Shown here: piece after piece, positions 45,568 to 50,650 of the stretch
Layout of the letters: every line of letters starts with the position of its first letter
Position numbering within the stretch: the first letter of the stretch is position 1
NCBI GenBank assembly: GCA_003278765.1
Contig: QCDK01000005.1
Location: 1 to 64,000, forward strand
Length of the DNA stretch: 64,000 nucleotides
DNA from: Prochlorococcus sp. AG-355-G23
Lineage (GTDB): Bacteria > Cyanobacteriota > Cyanobacteriia > PCC-6307 > Cyanobiaceae
Reading direction: 5' to 3'
The notes under the pieces: generated by a model
The model's database searches: none
Told to the model about the DNA's origin: nothing
What the model saw: the letters and a program-made list of their open reading frames with translations, nothing else
Position numbers and translations under genes: made by a program

Positions 45568-46371
45568 ATGCGTGGTTTTAATTTTGATGTTATAACATTG
45601 TTCCCTAAAGCTTTTGAATTAATAAATAATTTAGGGGTCATAACAAGAGCTCTAGATAAGAATTTGATCGATGTAAATTTACATGATTTAAGAGAATATG
45701 GAGAAGGTTCTTACAGACAAGTAGATGATAAGCCTTATGGAGGAGGAGCAGGTATGGTATTAAAACCTGAACCTATTTATAAGGCATATGAATCAATTAG
45801 AAAATCACCTAAAAGTAAAACTTTGTTGATGACCCCACAGGGTAAAGTCTTAAAGCAAAAGGATCTTGCGAGATGGACCACTTTGGATCAAATAATAATT
45901 ATTTGTGGTCAATATGAAGGTTTTGATGAGAGGATTAGATGTTTAGCTGATGAAGAGATATCGATAGGCGATTATGTCCTTTCTGGAGGTGAAATACCTG
46001 CTATATCAATAATTAATGGTTTGACTAGGTTATTACCAGGCACTCTTGGTGATCCAGACTCCTTAGTCGATGAGAGCCATAATTCATCTTTATTAGAATA
46101 TCCTCAATACACGAGGCCATTAACTTTCAAAAATATGAAAGTGCCAGATATTTTAGTGAGCGGTAATCATGAAGAGATTAAATCGTGGAGAAGAAGAAAA
46201 AGTTTTGAAAGAACATTGGAGAGAAGAAGTGACTTAATTTCAAATGAAAACTACAAAAAATCCCCACAAAGTAAGAGAATAATAAAAGAGAATAATCAAT
46301 TCATGAAATTTAGGATAGGTAATGGGTACGACACAGACGATTTAGAGGAAGATTGGTTTTGGGATATGTAG
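45568..46371 (+). CDS. trmD: tRNA (guanine-N1-)-methyltransferase with an ispF-derived tail
   Basis: A 267-aa SPOUT enzyme that methylates G37 of tRNA. Motifs: [28 protein letters not shown] (about 57-72), [15 protein letters not shown] (about 110-124), [15 protein letters not shown] (about 131-145) and [16 protein letters not shown]. The catalytic body ends near residue 230. The last about 23 residues read [19 protein letters not shown], a degenerate copy of the IspF N-terminus ([15 protein letters not shown]), in which the metal-ligand His is Asp. The trmD stop thus lies in sequence belonging to an insertion boundary. Function of the methyltransferase should be unaffected. Confidence 0.93.
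46309..46332 (+). repeat. left ispF-start repeat (attL candidate)
   Basis: It encodes FRIGNGYD in the trmD frame. It matches the right copy (50171-50194) at 19 of 24 bases, and all five differences are third-codon-position and synonymous. The longest exact blocks are GGTAATGG and TACGA. The similarity fades just downstream (TDDLEED against IHRLVED). Confidence 0.7.
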
Positions 46372-46378
46372 TTATAGC

Positions 46379-46407
46379 AAGACATTTGGAGAAATGTATG
46401 TTATAAT
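46379..46407 (+). promoter_or_regulatory. candidate integrase promoter
   Basis: AAGACA (46379-46384) and a perfect TATAAT (46402-46407) are separated by 17 nt. They lie about 40 nt upstream of the integrase ATG and just inside the left end of the element. Confidence 0.5.
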
Positions 46408-46421
46408 AAGACAAATACACC

Positions 46422-46434
46422 TGTGATACAGATT
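46422..46434 (+). repeat. TGTRATACARAY motif, left copy (possible integrase arm site)
   Basis: TGTGATACAGATT, between the integrase promoter and start codon. Near-identical copies occur at 49983 and 50067 by the other end of the element. Confidence 0.45.
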
Positions 46435-46447
46435 CACAAAAACGTAG

Positions 46448-47965
46448 ATGTCCCAAGAAGCAGATTTACAGAATCAATCCAGTAATGATGCTCTGCTGAA
46501 GGTAGCATCACAACTGTTAGAACAAACAGGAATCAATAAAGATGATTTCTTTTCTGCTATCTCTGCTCTACAAACTGCTAAAGCACAGAATCCCGAAGCA
46601 AAAGCAGATGTAAACAAGAACTATGTTGATAAGACACCTGTTTATGATGATGTAGATGCTTTCATCTACAAACGTGGAGATACAAAGTCAGGCATTTGGT
46701 ATTTTCGCATCTGGGACACCAAGAGACGTAAAGCAATCTTCCGTTCACTTAAGACCACAAACAAAGAGTTAGCAATCACTACCGCAAAGCAACTGTACCG
46801 TGATATAGCAGGCAAAATAGAGAAAGGAGAACGACTCAAGCAGATTACTACTGATGAGTTGATAGGAATGTGGGACAAGTACCTACAATCTAAAATCACA
46901 ACTACACCACACAAAGGAATAGTTCCTAAAACTTACAAGAGCAAAAGGTATTGGTTGGGGAACTGGAGCAAATACATCAAAGAACTACACCTACACAAGA
47001 CACCAATAGACAAAATCAAACCACATCTTACAAGAGGGTTTAGTGTATGGTTGGAGTCCAGACCAAAGGAGACAGCACAACATACAGGTGCTAGGTCAAG
47101 AGAGCAAATCAATAATAATGTTAATGAAGTACTGAAGATGTATCGTCAAATCGCAGTCAGAGAAAGGTATATCTCAACAGACGACGTACCACAGATAGAC
47201 CGTCTACCATACGAGATTGATGATAGAGTCAAACGTGATATTCCAACAGAAGCAGAGTACGAGACCTACTGGAAGTATCTACAGCACAAGTACATCGCAA
47301 AGAAGAACAACAAAAATGTACCATTAGAAGAACTAGAGAAACGTAAGATATTTAAGGAGTTCATACTGATACTTGCTAATAGTGGGATTCGTCCAAAAGA
47401 GTTGTTAGGAGTCAAGAAGAAAGAAATAACAGAAATCATCAATAGAGACCAAGATGCTAGTGATAACAAGGAGAATCTAGTTATTAACATCAGACGAGAT
47501 AATGCTAAAACTGGTAGGTCTAGGTCTATTGTCTGTCCTATTAGAAAAAGGTTGGATAGGATTTATCAAGCATATGGGAAGTTGGGTATAGTACACGAAC
47601 CAGAAGATTATATATTTCTCAATCCAGTCAAGAACAGTAAGTTCTACCGACAGTCATATGGACGAATGATAATGAATAACCGACTCAAAGCAACCCTAGA
47701 ATCTAGTGGTATGAAGGAAACTTTAGCAAAAGAAAGCAGAAGCATTAGTTTGTACTCATTCAGACATTTCTATGCGTACCTCCGTCTGATAAATGAAGTT
47801 CCAATCCATCTGCTTGCCGAGAATATGGGGACATCTGTATTCCATCTGGAACGCACTTACGGTCATATCAATACACAACTACAAGCAGGTATCATCACAA
47901 AGAATATGGGATTTCTTGGTAGGACAGAGACCGACCTAGTAATGGAAACGGTATCAGCAGAATGA
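46448..47965 (+). CDS. int: tyrosine recombinase / integrase
   Basis: A 505-aa phage-type integrase. An N-terminal arm-binding-like part (about 70-130), a core-binding domain (about 135-245) and a C-terminal catalytic domain are present. Catalytic residues I can place: Arg315 in ANSGIRPKELLG, Lys354 in NAKTGRSR, Arg439-His440 in LYSFRHFYAYLR, and nucleophile Tyr471 in LERTYGHIN. The usual His of HxxR is Tyr436 (LYSFRH), a variant known from marine integrases. The first about 60 residues are polar and weakly conserved-looking. It is the first gene of the element and overlaps the 46-aa ORF by ATGA. It probably integrates and excises the element at ispF. Confidence 0.92.
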   Translation: MSQEADLQNQSSNDALLKVASQLLEQTGINKDDFFSAISALQTAKAQNPEAKADVNKNYVDKTPVYDDVDAFIYKRGDTKSGIWYFRIWDTKRRKAIFRSLKTTNKELAITTAKQLYRDIAGKIEKGERLKQITTDELIGMWDKYLQSKITTTPHKGIVPKTYKSKRYWLGNWSKYIKELHLHKTPIDKIKPHLTRGFSVWLESRPKETAQHTGARSREQINNNVNEVLKMYRQIAVRERYISTDDVPQIDRLPYEIDDRVKRDIPTEAEYETYWKYLQHKYIAKKNNKNVPLEELEKRKIFKEFILILANSGIRPKELLGVKKKEITEIINRDQDASDNKENLVINIRRDNAKTGRSRSIVCPIRKRLDRIYQAYGKLGIVHEPEDYIFLNPVKNSKFYRQSYGRMIMNNRLKATLESSGMKETLAKESRSISLYSFRHFYAYLRLINEVPIHLLAENMGTSVFHLERTYGHINTQLQAGIITKNMGFLGRTETDLVMETVSAE

Positions 47966-48102
47966 GATACAAAGTTCAGTTATACGTTGGTGGTACATTA
48001 TTCTACGAAGAAGTTATTGCTAGGGACTACGAAGATGCTAGGAAGACAGCATTAGCAAGAAACCCAACGGCAACTGTAGTTAGTGTTAACGTATCATCAT
48101 AA
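47962..48102 (+). CDS. 46-aa phage-type small protein, coupled to integrase
   Basis: Starts in an ATGA overlap with the integrase stop. The sequence (MRYKVQLYVGGTLFYEEVIA then RDYEDARKTALARNPTATVV) predicts a beta hairpin, one helix and a strand. Similar small proteins with the ...Y.DAR..AL.RNP pattern are, from memory, frequent in cyanophage genomes, with no known function. Because of coupling it could be a directionality factor or an integrase regulator, but this is a guess from position. Confidence 0.65.
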   Translation: MRYKVQLYVGGTLFYEEVIARDYEDARKTALARNPTATVVSVNVSS

Positions 48103-48128
48103 ATGAGATATTAGGAGATATTATTTCA

Positions 48129-48167
48129 TAAATAGAATCAGTATTACTCATATTCTCAAACTCAACG
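48129..48167 (+). repeat. direct repeat, copy 1, containing CAGTATTAC
   Basis: Begins ATAAATAGAATCAGTATTAC. It pairs with copy 2 at 48421-48459 (31/39). CAGTATTAC (48139-48147) sits in the loop of a weak AGAAT/ATTCT stem and resembles the nick-site nonamer of circovirus-type origins. Confidence 0.6.
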
Positions 48168-48376
48168 CACTTTCACGCAACATCACGGCACTATAGTTAT
48201 TGTTAACGTAATCCTATAAACTACTAGGAACTAAATGTTTATTATAGAACATAAATAGTACATAGTAAGTAAAAAGAATGTGTTAGAAAAGCATAGTGTC
48301 TGTCTTATATCTCTCGTTATTGTGCGGAGATGAGGTCGTCTTACCGTGTTAACACAGAGGACTTCACGGCAGAGGG

Positions 48377-48405
48377 TTGACTTTTATGTTCTAAAGTGGT
48401 ATAAT
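48377..48405 (+). promoter_or_regulatory. near-consensus sigma-70 promoter for rep
   Basis: TTGACT (48377-48382), a 17-nt spacer and perfect TATAAT (48400-48405). It is the strongest-looking promoter in the window and would give a leader of roughly 195 nt before the rep ATG. Confidence 0.75.
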
Positions 48406-48413
48406 ATACCATA
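48398..48413 (+). promoter_or_regulatory. palindromic operator candidate over the rep -10 box
   Basis: TGGTAT-AAT-ATACCA is a perfect 6-bp inverted repeat with a 3-nt centre, covering the -10 hexamer. It is a natural site for one of the two RHH-like proteins encoded downstream, as in CopG-type plasmid copy control. Confidence 0.55.
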
Positions 48414-48420
48414 CTATTTA

Positions 48421-48459
48421 ATAAATAGAGTCAGTAATACTAATAACCTTAAACTCATC
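48421..48459 (+). repeat. direct repeat, copy 2
   Basis: Begins ATAAATAGAGTCAGTAATAC. It is the partner of the 48129 copy and lies just after the promoter and operator, within the predicted rep leader. Confidence 0.6.
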
Positions 48460-48500
48460 AAATCAAAGACATCATCTACGAGGAGATGTAAACAAAGGAT

Positions 48501-48552
48501 AGAACATAGCACCCGAAGTTGATACTTACTAGTCGTATCTGCTATGGGTTCT
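48501..48552 (+). promoter_or_regulatory. multi-stem hairpin upstream of rep
   Basis: AGAAC+ATAGC (48501-48510) pairs with GCTAT+GTTCT (48541-48545, 48548-48552) with a GG bulge. Inside, GATAC (48521-48525) pairs with GTATC (48535-48539) around loop TTACTAGTC. Fifteen pairs in all. It could be a cruciform at the origin or a structured leader RNA controlling rep. Confidence 0.6.
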
Positions 48553-48607
48553 CTGTTCTCTGTTATTACAAATAATCCAATATTCTATCATTTACAAACG
48601 AATCACT

Positions 48608-49369
48608 ATGAACCAGATAATAGACCTCTCTGAAGGGCATATAGGCACTACTGACGGCACTTTAGAAGAGTTATTTAATGATACTAACGATAAGATAAAG
48701 GACAGTAGAATATCATTTTCTACCAACTTCTCTAAAGTAAACATCAGTCCCTACATCAAGGGAATGTTTATCAGTATCAGTAATCATAAGAAGGACTCTT
48801 ACGATATTGAGAAGAACTTTAGAAAGCAGTACCAATCTGTACTTAAGGCAGTTGGTATCAAAGTTGGTAGAGATGATATACACAAACAGTATGGTTTACC
48901 AAGTAGAGCAACTATCAACGGATTGATAGAAAAAGGCATACCTATTGCTATTGCTGGGATTCACGACTATGAGAACGAAGACAAAGATGATGGTATTACA
49001 TATCAACACACACATATACTTTTCTACAATATCCACCACTATCTCCCAAACAACAACAAGCAACTAGCAAGTTGTATCAACAGAGTTAGAGCAACTCAAG
49101 GACGGTATGTTGGTAAAAAGTTTAGAAGAGATGGTGTTGACGTTAGACCAGTTGGTACATACAAGCATTACACCAACGAACAGTTTAACGACGATAGTTT
49201 CTACGACTATCTCCACAATCCATTAAATAGTCCTAACCGAGATTGTCTTATCAACTACATCAGTAAGAACAGGCACAATCCTGATGTTAACTACCGTCTG
49301 ACCTACCTGTACCATAACAACGACTATCTGCCTGTGAACTTATCAAACCGTACTATTACTACAAACTAA
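48608..49369 (+). CDS. candidate HUH-endonuclease replication initiator (Rep-like)
   Basis: I do not recognise a close family, but the 253-aa protein shows the three ordered motifs of HUH rolling-circle initiators: motif 1 FISIS (54-58), motif 2 HTHILFY (His134 and His136, metal ligands) and motif 3 NYISKN with Tyr217-x-x-Lys220, the YxxK form seen in CRESS-DNA virus and some plasmid Reps. No helicase domain follows, so a host or partner helicase would be needed. No Walker A motif is visible. Location behind a repeat-rich region and ahead of RHH-like genes matches pMV158-type plasmid organisation. A relaxase-like or transposase-like HUH enzyme is the main alternative. Confidence 0.6.
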   Translation: MNQIIDLSEGHIGTTDGTLEELFNDTNDKIKDSRISFSTNFSKVNISPYIKGMFISISNHKKDSYDIEKNFRKQYQSVLKAVGIKVGRDDIHKQYGLPSRATINGLIEKGIPIAIAGIHDYENEDKDDGITYQHTHILFYNIHHYLPNNNKQLASCINRVRATQGRYVGKKFRRDGVDVRPVGTYKHYTNEQFNDDSFYDYLHNPLNSPNRDCLINYISKNRHNPDVNYRLTYLYHNNDYLPVNLSNRTITTN

Positions 49370-49370
49370 A

Positions 49371-49616
49371 ATGACTGCTACTACAACTAAAACACGTCCC
49401 TCCAAGAAAGGAGACACTCAACAACTCAAGATAAACGTATCGTACCGTGATACTGATTCAGACAACGACCTCTACAACAAGGTCATCAGAATAAGTCAAC
49501 TGTCTCATAGCACTAGTAGTGCTGTTAGCAGAACTCTAATAAGAGAAGGTCTTAAGAATGAATCACTAGTAGAACATCTTATTGGTTATCCCATTTCAGT
49601 ACTCAACAGGGTTTAG
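49371..49616 (+). CDS. 81-aa ribbon-helix-helix-like protein (CopG/Arc type candidate)
   Basis: It begins 1 nt after the rep stop. After a basic N-terminal arm (MTATTTKTRPSKKGD) comes a strand-helix-helix pattern: QLKINVSYRD, then NDLYNKVIRISQLSHS, then TSSAVSRTLIREGL, which fits an RHH DNA-binding fold with the basic arm contacting DNA. It would make a plausible repressor of the rep promoter through the palindrome at 48398. The assignment rests on secondary-structure pattern only. Confidence 0.55.
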   Translation: MTATTTKTRPSKKGDTQQLKINVSYRDTDSDNDLYNKVIRISQLSHSTSSAVSRTLIREGLKNESLVEHLIGYPISVLNRV

Positions 49617-49618
49617 GT

Positions 49619-49756
49619 ATGTTTGTTTCACGCAGATTATCAAAAGAACACGACCAGAAACTACAAGTTCTAGCAAAACAGCAGAGACCAACTACAACAC
49701 CAGATAAGATGTTGGAGAAGTTGGTGGAGCAGAGTTTTATTAACCAAAAGTTTTAA
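49619..49756 (+). CDS. 45-aa ribbon-helix-helix-like protein
   Basis: Starts 2 nt after the previous stop. The whole protein is one RHH-sized unit: FVSRRLS (strand), KEHDQKLQVLAKQQ (helix), TTPDKMLEKLVEQSF (helix), almost exactly the minimal CopG length. With its neighbour it gives two small DNA-binding candidates in one transcript, possibly for copy control and for integrase or excision control. Confidence 0.55.
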   Translation: MFVSRRLSKEHDQKLQVLAKQQRPTTTPDKMLEKLVEQSFINQKF

Positions 49757-49768
49757 GTTAACATAACT

Positions 49769-49786
49769 AAACTGACTGCTATGACT
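49769..49786 (+). repeat. 18-bp repeat at a translation start, copy 1
   Basis: AAACTGACTGCTATGACT, containing the start codon of the 52-aa ORF. It differs at one base from the copy at 50116-50133. A shorter relative (AAACTAAAATGACTGCTA) spans the start of the 81-aa gene near 49363. Confidence 0.7.
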
Positions 49787-49939
49787 AACAAGAAGACAAA
49801 GAAAAGTAAAACATACCAATCTTTCATCAGAGACCTTGTTTACAACAATCCAAGAGCAGACCGTCAGGCAGGTTCTATGGATTCAGCAGTACCAGATAAC
49901 AGAATGTTGTATGACGATTCCAAAGATAAGGCACTTTAG
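49781..49939 (+). CDS. 52-aa basic protein of unknown function
   Basis: The product begins MTNKKTKKSKTYQSFIRDLV and is basic in its N-terminal half and acidic towards the end (DNRMLYDDSKDKAL). No fold is evident. It shares element codon use. It could be an accessory DNA-binding or excision factor, but only location suggests this. Confidence 0.45.
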   Translation: MTNKKTKKSKTYQSFIRDLVYNNPRADRQAGSMDSAVPDNRMLYDDSKDKAL

Positions 49940-50146
49940 GAGTCCCAACCAAACGCAATCTATAAAAGTGGGTGCGTCTTGGTGTAATACAAACTGGTAG
50001 AATAAAAAATGAACGTCAGTTTACACTAAAAACATCTATGTTTGGATATATGAATATTTTTACAGATGTAATACAGATGATTTTAGACGAATCTAGACAT
50101 AAACAAATGCTAGGCAAACTAACTGCTATGACTGGGGACTTATGAT
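49940..50146 (+). other. right end of the element, repeat-bearing and non-coding
   Basis: No gene is visible. It carries two TGTAATACA motifs (49983-49995, 50067-50079), a direct repeat TACAGATG-TAA-TACAGATG (50061-50079), and a second copy of the 18-bp start-region repeat (50116-50133) followed by an abortive five-codon ORF, MTGDL. The layout suggests integrase arm sites and a remnant of a lost gene. Confidence 0.5.
50116..50133 (+). repeat. 18-bp repeat at a translation start, copy 2 (gene remnant)
   Basis: AAACTAACTGCTATGACT. The ATG opens a five-codon ORF that stops at once. It is probably the trace of a deleted gene next to the right end. Confidence 0.55.
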
Positions 50147-50650
50147 ATGGGAAATGGTAGGTCTCCACAGTTCAGAATCGGTAATGGATACGATATTCAC
50201 AGACTAGTAGAGGATAGAGATTTAATTATTGGAGGTGTAAAACTGCATCATCCTGAAAGTTTAGGCTTGGATGGGCATAGTGATGCTGATGTTTTAAGTC
50301 ACTCAATTATGGATGCGTTACTAGGAGCGCTTTCGTTGGGCGACATAGGAAAGTATTTTCCCCCATCAGATGAAAAATGGAAAAATGCTGATAGCTTGTT
50401 TTTGTTATCAAAAGTAATTGACTTGATAAGAAAAGATGGTTGGGAAATAAATAATATTGATAGTGTTCTTGTTGCTGAAAGGCCAAAAATTATGCCACAT
50501 GTAAAACTAATGAAGAAAAACATTTCTGAAATTTTAAATATTGATGAAAATTTAATTGGGATTAAAGCAACCACTAATGAAAAATTGGGTCCAGAAGGGA
50601 GAGAAGAGGGTATAAGTTGCCATTCAGTAGTTCTTCTTGAGAAAAAATGA
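50147..50650 (+). CDS. ispF: 2-C-methyl-D-erythritol 2,4-cyclodiphosphate synthase
   Basis: The 167-aa enzyme forms the cyclodiphosphate of the MEP isoprenoid pathway, feeding carotenoid and chlorophyll phytol synthesis. [15 protein letters not shown] (9-23) supplies the Asp-x-His zinc site, followed by [47 protein letters not shown] and C-terminal [19 protein letters not shown]. The first about 8 codons (MGNGRSPQ) and possibly those up to RI are supplied by the inserted element, so the present start and promoter are probably not the ancestral ones. The 3' end overlaps the next gene by 4 nt. Confidence 0.95.
50171..50194 (+). repeat. right ispF-start repeat (attR candidate)
   Basis: Codons for FRIGNGYD in functional ispF; 19/24 identical to 46309-46332. 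The reading frame downstream is intact ispF. Confidence 0.7.

Follow-up and report, generated by a model that had tools for sequence, protein, structure and literature searches.

We analyzed a stretch of 64,000 nucleotides (nt) from Prochlorococcus sp. AG-355-G23 (draft genome of 61 contigs, G000; the stretch is hereafter called the window), in which an insert of 3.9 kb (positions 46318 to 50193) separates trmD (45568 to 46371) from ispF (start at 50147). The insert is bounded by a left core repeat, GGTAATGGGTACGA (attL, 46318 to 46331), and a right one, GGTAATGGATACGA (attR, 50180 to 50193), which are direct repeats of the target (GGTAATGGgTACGA and GGTAATGGaTACGA) identical at 13 of 14 positions. 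A preliminary description made from the letters alone had set the bounds at 46309 and 50194; it placed the insertion correctly, but the core repeats give better limits. Between the host genes lie six open reading frames (ORFs), and all the genes proposed there are on the plus strand between 46371 and 50147, as had been claimed; the other features located below are also read on this strand. The ORFs encode, in order, a tyrosine recombinase of 505 amino acids (aa; 46448 to 47965), a 46-aa protein (47962 to 48102), and, after 505 non-coding nt (48103 to 48607), a 253-aa candidate Rep (48608 to 49369), followed by proteins of 81 (49371 to 49616), 45 (49619 to 49756), and 52 aa (49781 to 49939). 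The G+C content is 0.35 to 0.39 across 46 to 50 kb, versus 0.32 to 0.33 in the adjacent kilobases. No tRNA gene lies in or near the element, the closest one within the window being at 24 kb, and Pfam and PHROG scans recognized no cargo among the element proteins, in line with the preliminary description.

Comparison with related genomes revealed the empty form of this site, which that description had not reported. In the genus search, 214 of 266 genomes gave a match, and the matches listed cover 149 genomes (150 rows, G416 appearing twice), so the following shares apply to these 149 and not to all 214. In 112 of them trmD runs into ispF as a single open frame of 392 to 410 aa, and in the other 37, the window's genome included, they are unfused, with frames of 167 to 193 aa. 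In a first sample, ispF was found in 50 of 61 genomes and the frame was joined in 29 of these 50; the 29 joined frames, typically about 406 aa long, showed a fixed distance when read, and all kept the internal ispF ATG. Loci L034, L036, and L038 to L050 are examples of the single frame. G173, from another genus, is also joined (open frame of 411), and of nine further matches beyond the closest kin, eight have frames of 164 to 198 aa and one of 366. A TrmD-IspF fusion protein may be made from the joined frame, and translation as two proteins may still occur. The earlier claim of an integrative element at ispF is borne out by this comparison of empty and occupied sites.

Relative to the empty site, the insertion point falls in GGTAATGGATACGATATTCA, which encodes IGNGYDIH in ispF. 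At the left junction, trmD reads through the old ispF start (ATGAAATTTAGG, 46303 to 46314, kept on the host side of the left core) and through the core, and terminates inside element sequence, which supplies its tail and stop (46332 to 46371). The usual unfused TrmD ends in IGNEYDIYPDW; the end of the window's TrmD differs, resembling that of G363 (L149) and the WFWDM or WYWDI ends of some unfused TrmD proteins. At the right junction, alignment with the empty site indicates that a new ATG and about eight codons of ispF (50147 to 50179) come from the element. Since the element brings a trmD tail with its stop and an ispF start with its codons, insertion splits the joined frame and neither gene is destroyed. 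As read from the sequence, the insertion thus completes both genes out of the joined frame.

The recombinase, already noted at the left of the insert by the preliminary description, matches PHROG_1 (integrase; E = 1e-20) and, more weakly than its curated cut-off demands, Pfam Phage_integrase (E = 6e-4). The catalytic residues R315, R439, and Y471 are retained in all 15 real rows of the alignment used for the integrase tree (a 16th, G173, is empty), with the usual H of the HxxR motif replaced by Y (YxxR, with R439), and the protein is confirmed as a tyrosine recombinase. Searches at E ≤ 1e-3 detected relatives, many of them distant, in 55 of 300 genomes from the family and in 18 of 266 from the genus. 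G264 carries a second integrase-bearing element at ispF, with an integrase 46 to 47% identical to the window's; that of G029, from another genus, is 44% identical and is not at ispF. The tree groups these three together (0.995). The window integrase was not found in phage records, nor was that of G264 in plasmids or viral contigs. In the viral contigs, one match, in L110, was rejected as chance (23 residues, within a helix-turn-helix-like ORF).

The same clade uses another target. Integrases of the genus at about 30 to 36% identity adjoin a gene labeled flavodiiron-like by inspection (G264, G348, G540, G517, G492, and G356; broken in G429), as do integrases in the same identity range from other genera of the family, perhaps Synechococcus-like (G165, G134, and G205; with stops in G120 and G285). 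In the seven genus loci a more or less faithful copy of the gene's 3' end (about AAAGTTGCTAATCACTATTA) is found at the far end as well, and GTTGAAAATGAGTTGAAA-like repeats lie inside both ends of several of these elements. We conclude that the 3' end of the flavodiiron-like gene is a second hotspot of the clade of the window integrase, which also goes beyond the preliminary description. The loci at this site (L024, L113 to L118, L026 to L029, and L031) hold varied small gene sets, which include zinc-ribbon-like proteins and, judged from sequence, a ParB-methyltransferase protein (L024, L113, and L115).

The Rep candidate belongs to a family present in 4 of 266 genus genomes (the window's, G264, G428, and G517), and no relatives were found in viral contigs, phage records, or plasmids as searched; in a scan of genome contigs the alignment as query retrieved two loci, where an earlier scan had retrieved none. 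All four genomes share the order of the module: a small gene, a non-coding gap, Rep, and then at least two small genes. The gene before Rep is of the 46-aa family in three of them; in G428 it encodes 53 aa and is 22% identical. The module sits at the flavodiiron-like site in G264 and beside other recombinases in G428 and G517, where the upstream gene is, we assume, serine recombinase-like; a recombinase of the tyrosine clade accompanies it in the window and in the flavodiiron-site element of G264. Five residues are invariant among the four sequences: H134 and H136 (an HxH motif), Y199, Y201, and Y217, the last lying in a window motif, YISK, whose K is not kept in all four. Near the modules of G428 and G517 lies a pair of proteins of 434 and 428 aa (L124:10797-12101 and L125:6162-7448; 63% identical) with no assigned function, and a tRNA-Cys is close to that of G517. 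By inspection, the Rep slot of other elements in the clade is filled by different proteins that have HxH or come close to it.

The non-coding block in front of Rep is a candidate origin and Rep leader. It had been described as repeat rich; the block itself is real, but repetition within it is modest (a direct repeat of 73 nt with 73% identity), and among seven non-coding blocks compared no convincing origin motif emerged, one short A+T-rich word being common to three only. Promoter-like sites precede both integrase (AAGACA-17-TATAAT, 46379 to 46407) and Rep (TTGACT-17-TATAAT, 11 of 12 positions, 48377 to 48405), as consensus matches of a class that does not exceed chance (6 in the region versus a shuffle mean of 13.7). 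Downstream of Rep, the preliminary description rightly pointed to two tiny genes, the 81- and 45-aa ones, but its label of ribbon-helix-helix (RHH)-like regulators, given by inspection, has no Pfam support; the 52-aa ORF has no Pfam or PHROG match.

The 46-aa gene, left undescribed in the preliminary account, which may have passed over it, starts in an ATGA overlap with the end of the integrase gene at 47962. Its product belongs to phrog_685 (E = 1.7e-24), and proteins of this type occur in 330 phage records, almost all of cyanophages, whose names begin with Synechococcus (271), Cyanophage (44), Prochlorococcus (12), or Marine (3). Three phage contexts were inspected: in S-PM2 the homologue is flanked by gp44 and gp62 and overlaps Dam; in S-SM1 it is upstream of gp45 and gp44, with a 4-nt overlap with a peptidase gene; and in S-SCSM1 it is annotated "RNA polymerase inhibitor," with hypothetical neighbors. 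Within the genus, the family gave matches at E ≤ 1e-3 in 45 of 265 genomes, many weak, and a recombinase neighbor was missing in several of the 12 loci inspected. Small phrog_685-like genes lie beside or overlap what we take to be serine recombinase-like genes in L180, L183, L188, L189, and L191, the overlap being 4 nt in L180, L188, and L189. The predicted fold (mean predicted local distance difference test score [pLDDT] of 94.9) best matches T7 Gp2 (Foldseek probability 1.00, but E = 0.12), which VIA-align also ranks first (Z = 7.6, root mean square deviation [rmsd] 1.4, 46 residues aligned). Since archaeal and eukaryotic large-subunit ribosomal chains tie with Gp2 (Z = 7.5 to 7.0), this fold is no proof of RNA polymerase binding. 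In PICMI satellites, a gene overlapping the integrase gene (iolg) is reported to be required for excision (PMC10803314), and an excision role may by analogy be proposed here. The 46-aa protein probably regulates excision or binds RNA polymerase.

The ispF site is itself a hotspot: occupied sites hold varied inserts besides the integrase-bearing elements, a further point beyond the preliminary description. We analyzed 48 unfused sites, 37 from the genus search and 11 from the first sample and G264 (L091, the same genome as L080, was dropped from the end counts). Within the stretches analyzed, only two of them, the window and G264, carry a full integrase, and 46 show no full one; several loci (L080, L088, L090, L147, and L154) stop at a contig end before trmD, where an integrase farther out is possible. 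A 49th locus, G532, has a truncated integrase. A scan of 30 of the 45 longest cassette ORFs against Pfam gave a match at E ≤ 1e-4 for 22 (that of L160 below its cut-off) and none for 8. The families comprise polysaccharide export (3), methyltransferases (5), acyl-/acetyltransferase, formyltransferase, GDP-mannose dehydratase, UDP-glucose dehydrogenase, glycosyltransferase 4, GINT1, RgpF, sulfotransferase, carbamoyltransferase, and ATP-grasp, together with aldo/keto reductase, phosphoribosyltransferase, and glyoxalase-like proteins, which have no obvious surface role. Judging by family names, many cassette genes would fit surface-glycan work.

These cassettes share their ends. Hidden Markov models (HMMs) applied in leave-one-out fashion (E < 0.01 for a nominal 10-kb target) recognized the right end, with a consensus of about ATTACAGAATAGTTACAGATTGTTTT...TATGACTA...TCTCCAAAGTTTCG, in 36 of the 48 loci and, adjoining trmD, the left end in 20; they recognized neither in the shuffled elements. 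The test is fair but not strict, each row having been removed from an alignment already built with it, the left-end rows having been picked beforehand by motif, and the control being one shuffle per element in two-base blocks. A DNA search with one right end matched 21 of 200 genomes. Nineteen of the matches are at ispF (query genome included), that of G304 being at an internal junction 1.3 kb upstream; the two off-site matches, in G403 and G288, are about 30 bases long. Remnants similar to the opening codons of the G264 integrase were detected in 13 integrase-less loci and in G532 (E < 0.01, usually with stops; tblastn without composition correction, 10 insert-free records in the same database giving none). 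Ten lie within about 120 bases of trmD (L164 has a second one too), and those of L078, L090, and L158 are internal. Internal ends, some weak, occur in 13 loci, and in L023, L080, and L090 a left end comes directly after a right end, as tandem insertion would be expected to leave them. In G264 (L023:8742-14538, ispF), a cassette with a 254-aa ORF is followed by the integrase-Rep element, which itself carries cassette-type ends, and the two meet in a full right-left junction. On the simplest reading, the cassettes are cut-down relatives of the integrase-bearing elements, movable in trans; they may also be exchanged by homologous recombination of the flanks.

We propose, with a probability of about two in three, that the 3.9-kb insert is an integrative element with a cycle of excision, rolling-circle copying, and reinsertion, the first two steps being inferred, as they were in the preliminary description. 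The tyrosine recombinase would join the element's site with the conserved 5' end of ispF, at the IGNGYDIH codons inside the joined frame, and the element would leave as a circle. An HUH-type Rep would then nick an origin in the 505-nt block, starting rolling-circle copying of the circle, and the small RHH-like proteins may control Rep or integrase. The 46-aa protein, coupled to the integrase by its ATGA, would regulate excision or bind RNA polymerase, and related integrases may move non-autonomous, ends-only cassettes in trans at ispF. Such mobilization is suggested by the shared ends, the integrase remnants, and the tandem junctions, and it is clearest for the G264-type integrase, not the window's.

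Several results weigh against this proposal. Most occupied sites show no integrase, so that many may be fixed relics, and no element protein matched an excisionase-like family in Pfam or PHROG. Neither end of the window element matches the cassette profiles at E < 0.01: the left end has no match to its HMM, and the arm-like stretch at the right end (50051 to 50132, with TTACAGATGTAATACAGAT) is the best place in the 64 kb for an HMM built from the other 47 right ends, though at no better than E = 0.2 (best in the reversed window, E = 0.98). Since these ends diverge and the G264 element has cassette ends, we assign the cassettes to the G264 type and regard the window element as a diverged sister that shares the target. 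The other points concern Rep. It has no Pfam match, its best PHROG match is at E = 0.096, and a search of PDB sequences with its alignment gave one meaningless match (EmrA, E = 0.51). The AlphaFold2 model from three sequences is of low confidence (pLDDT 48.5), with HxH on a strand (132 to 140), and its best Foldseek match is at E = 0.04, none falling below 0.001; pMV158 RepB is among the weak ones (rank 8, E = 0.16).

The 253-aa protein might be a relaxase or a transposase-like nuclease, or no HUH enzyme, rather than a replication initiator. Low model confidence and the lack of a significant family match favor this, as do the unrelated HPPK and Thg1 rows at Z = 5.3 to 5.9 in VIA-align, where a Z below 8 can reflect a common arrangement. 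Nevertheless, the six best VIA-align rows for this low-confidence model are all HUH Reps (Z = 7.4 to 6.0), among them adeno-associated virus Rep (Z = 7.4, rmsd 3.8, 124 aligned), minute virus of mice NS1 (6.3, 3.6, 125), and wheat dwarf virus Rep (6.1, 3.7, 110). The invariant HxH, a YxxK-like motif seen by inspection, and the gene order with two small RHH-like genes adjoining also argue for an initiator. We consider a non-initiator doubtful, though the likeliest of the alternatives, and hold the HUH-type identity, already suggested in the preliminary description, to be moderately supported.

The excised element might instead be copied and packaged by a cyanophage, as a satellite whose 46-aa protein forms the interface with phage or host transcription; the preliminary description had also considered a satellite. 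The frequency of phrog_685 in phage records, its place beside replication genes in S-PM2 and S-SM1 (not so in S-SCSM1), the Gp2-like predicted fold, and an ATGA overlap paralleling that of iolg, needed for excision in PICMI (PMC10803314), are consistent with this. However, no capsid, terminase, or packaging family was recognized among the element proteins (Pfam and PHROG), integrase and Rep have no relatives in phage records or viral contigs as searched, and an attP-like pattern, which fits the G264-type ends and not the window's, is absent from the viral contigs; we therefore regard a satellite as unlikely. It is about as improbable that the insert is an old, now immobile recombinase insertion, inherited or swapped with its flanks by homologous recombination, as the diverged ends and the integrase-start remnants in integrase-less neighbors would suggest, since the main reading frames are intact, the catalytic residues of the integrase are retained, and promoter-like sites precede integrase and Rep.

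A broader and more tentative reading, to which we give somewhat less than even odds, is that of a cassette-exchange system. The integrases of small HUH-Rep elements would bring in and rearrange short cassettes, frequently with cell-surface genes, at the joined trmD-ispF frame, each bringing its own trmD stop and ispF start, and this essential-gene junction would be a reusable, integron-like docking site with tandem accretion. Prochlorococcus would then have a mechanism to swap cell-surface genes, likely targets of phage recognition, at a non-tRNA site, and insertion would complete both neighbors out of a joined frame. Moreover, a small protein common in cyanophages would be tied to the recombinase genes of mobile elements in the host and thereby gain a role that can be tested.

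Several known systems resemble parts of this arrangement. Plasmids of the pMV158 type (RepB plus CopG) also combine an HUH Rep with a small RHH-like regulator; in pMV158, copG is upstream of repB, whereas the window element is integrated, has its small genes downstream of Rep, and showed no sequence match to them in the PDB search. Integrons have a recombinase in one element and short cassettes with shared ends in tandem arrays. The likeness is in this general layout, and the ends of the ispF cassettes, unlike those of integrons, lie inside a host gene frame. The small, putatively serine recombinase-like genes near the Rep module in G517 (with tRNA-Cys) and G428 are reminiscent of a picocyanobacterial integrase family at tRNA-Phe and tRNA-Cys. 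That family (PMC10187409) differs from the window element in recombinase and site. PICMI, from Vibrio, is likewise minimal (6.1 kb), with an ATGA-overlapping gene at the integrase and direct repeats at a protein gene, but it needs alpA, primase, and fis (PMC10803314); the window element has an HUH-like Rep and the ispF site, and no alpA or primase family match among its genes. Tycheposons, given as 4 to 200 kb long and at seven tRNA genes in PMC10872708, share the tyrosine recombinase, the picocyanobacterial host, and cargo at a fixed site; in contrast, the window element, at 3.9 kb, lies in the protein-coding ispF. No prior description of the trmD-ispF or flavodiiron-like sites was found in the literature searched, which comprised titles and abstracts in part and did not extend to the original tycheposon paper, so that they may have been mentioned earlier, e.g., among the "cryptic elements" (a term in PMC10187409). 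Within this setting, the insert is an intact-looking variant of the known picocyanobacterial recombinase islands, distinguished by its protein-gene site, minimal size, and HUH-like replication module; the greater surprise is that cassettes with common ends occupy a joined frame of essential genes.

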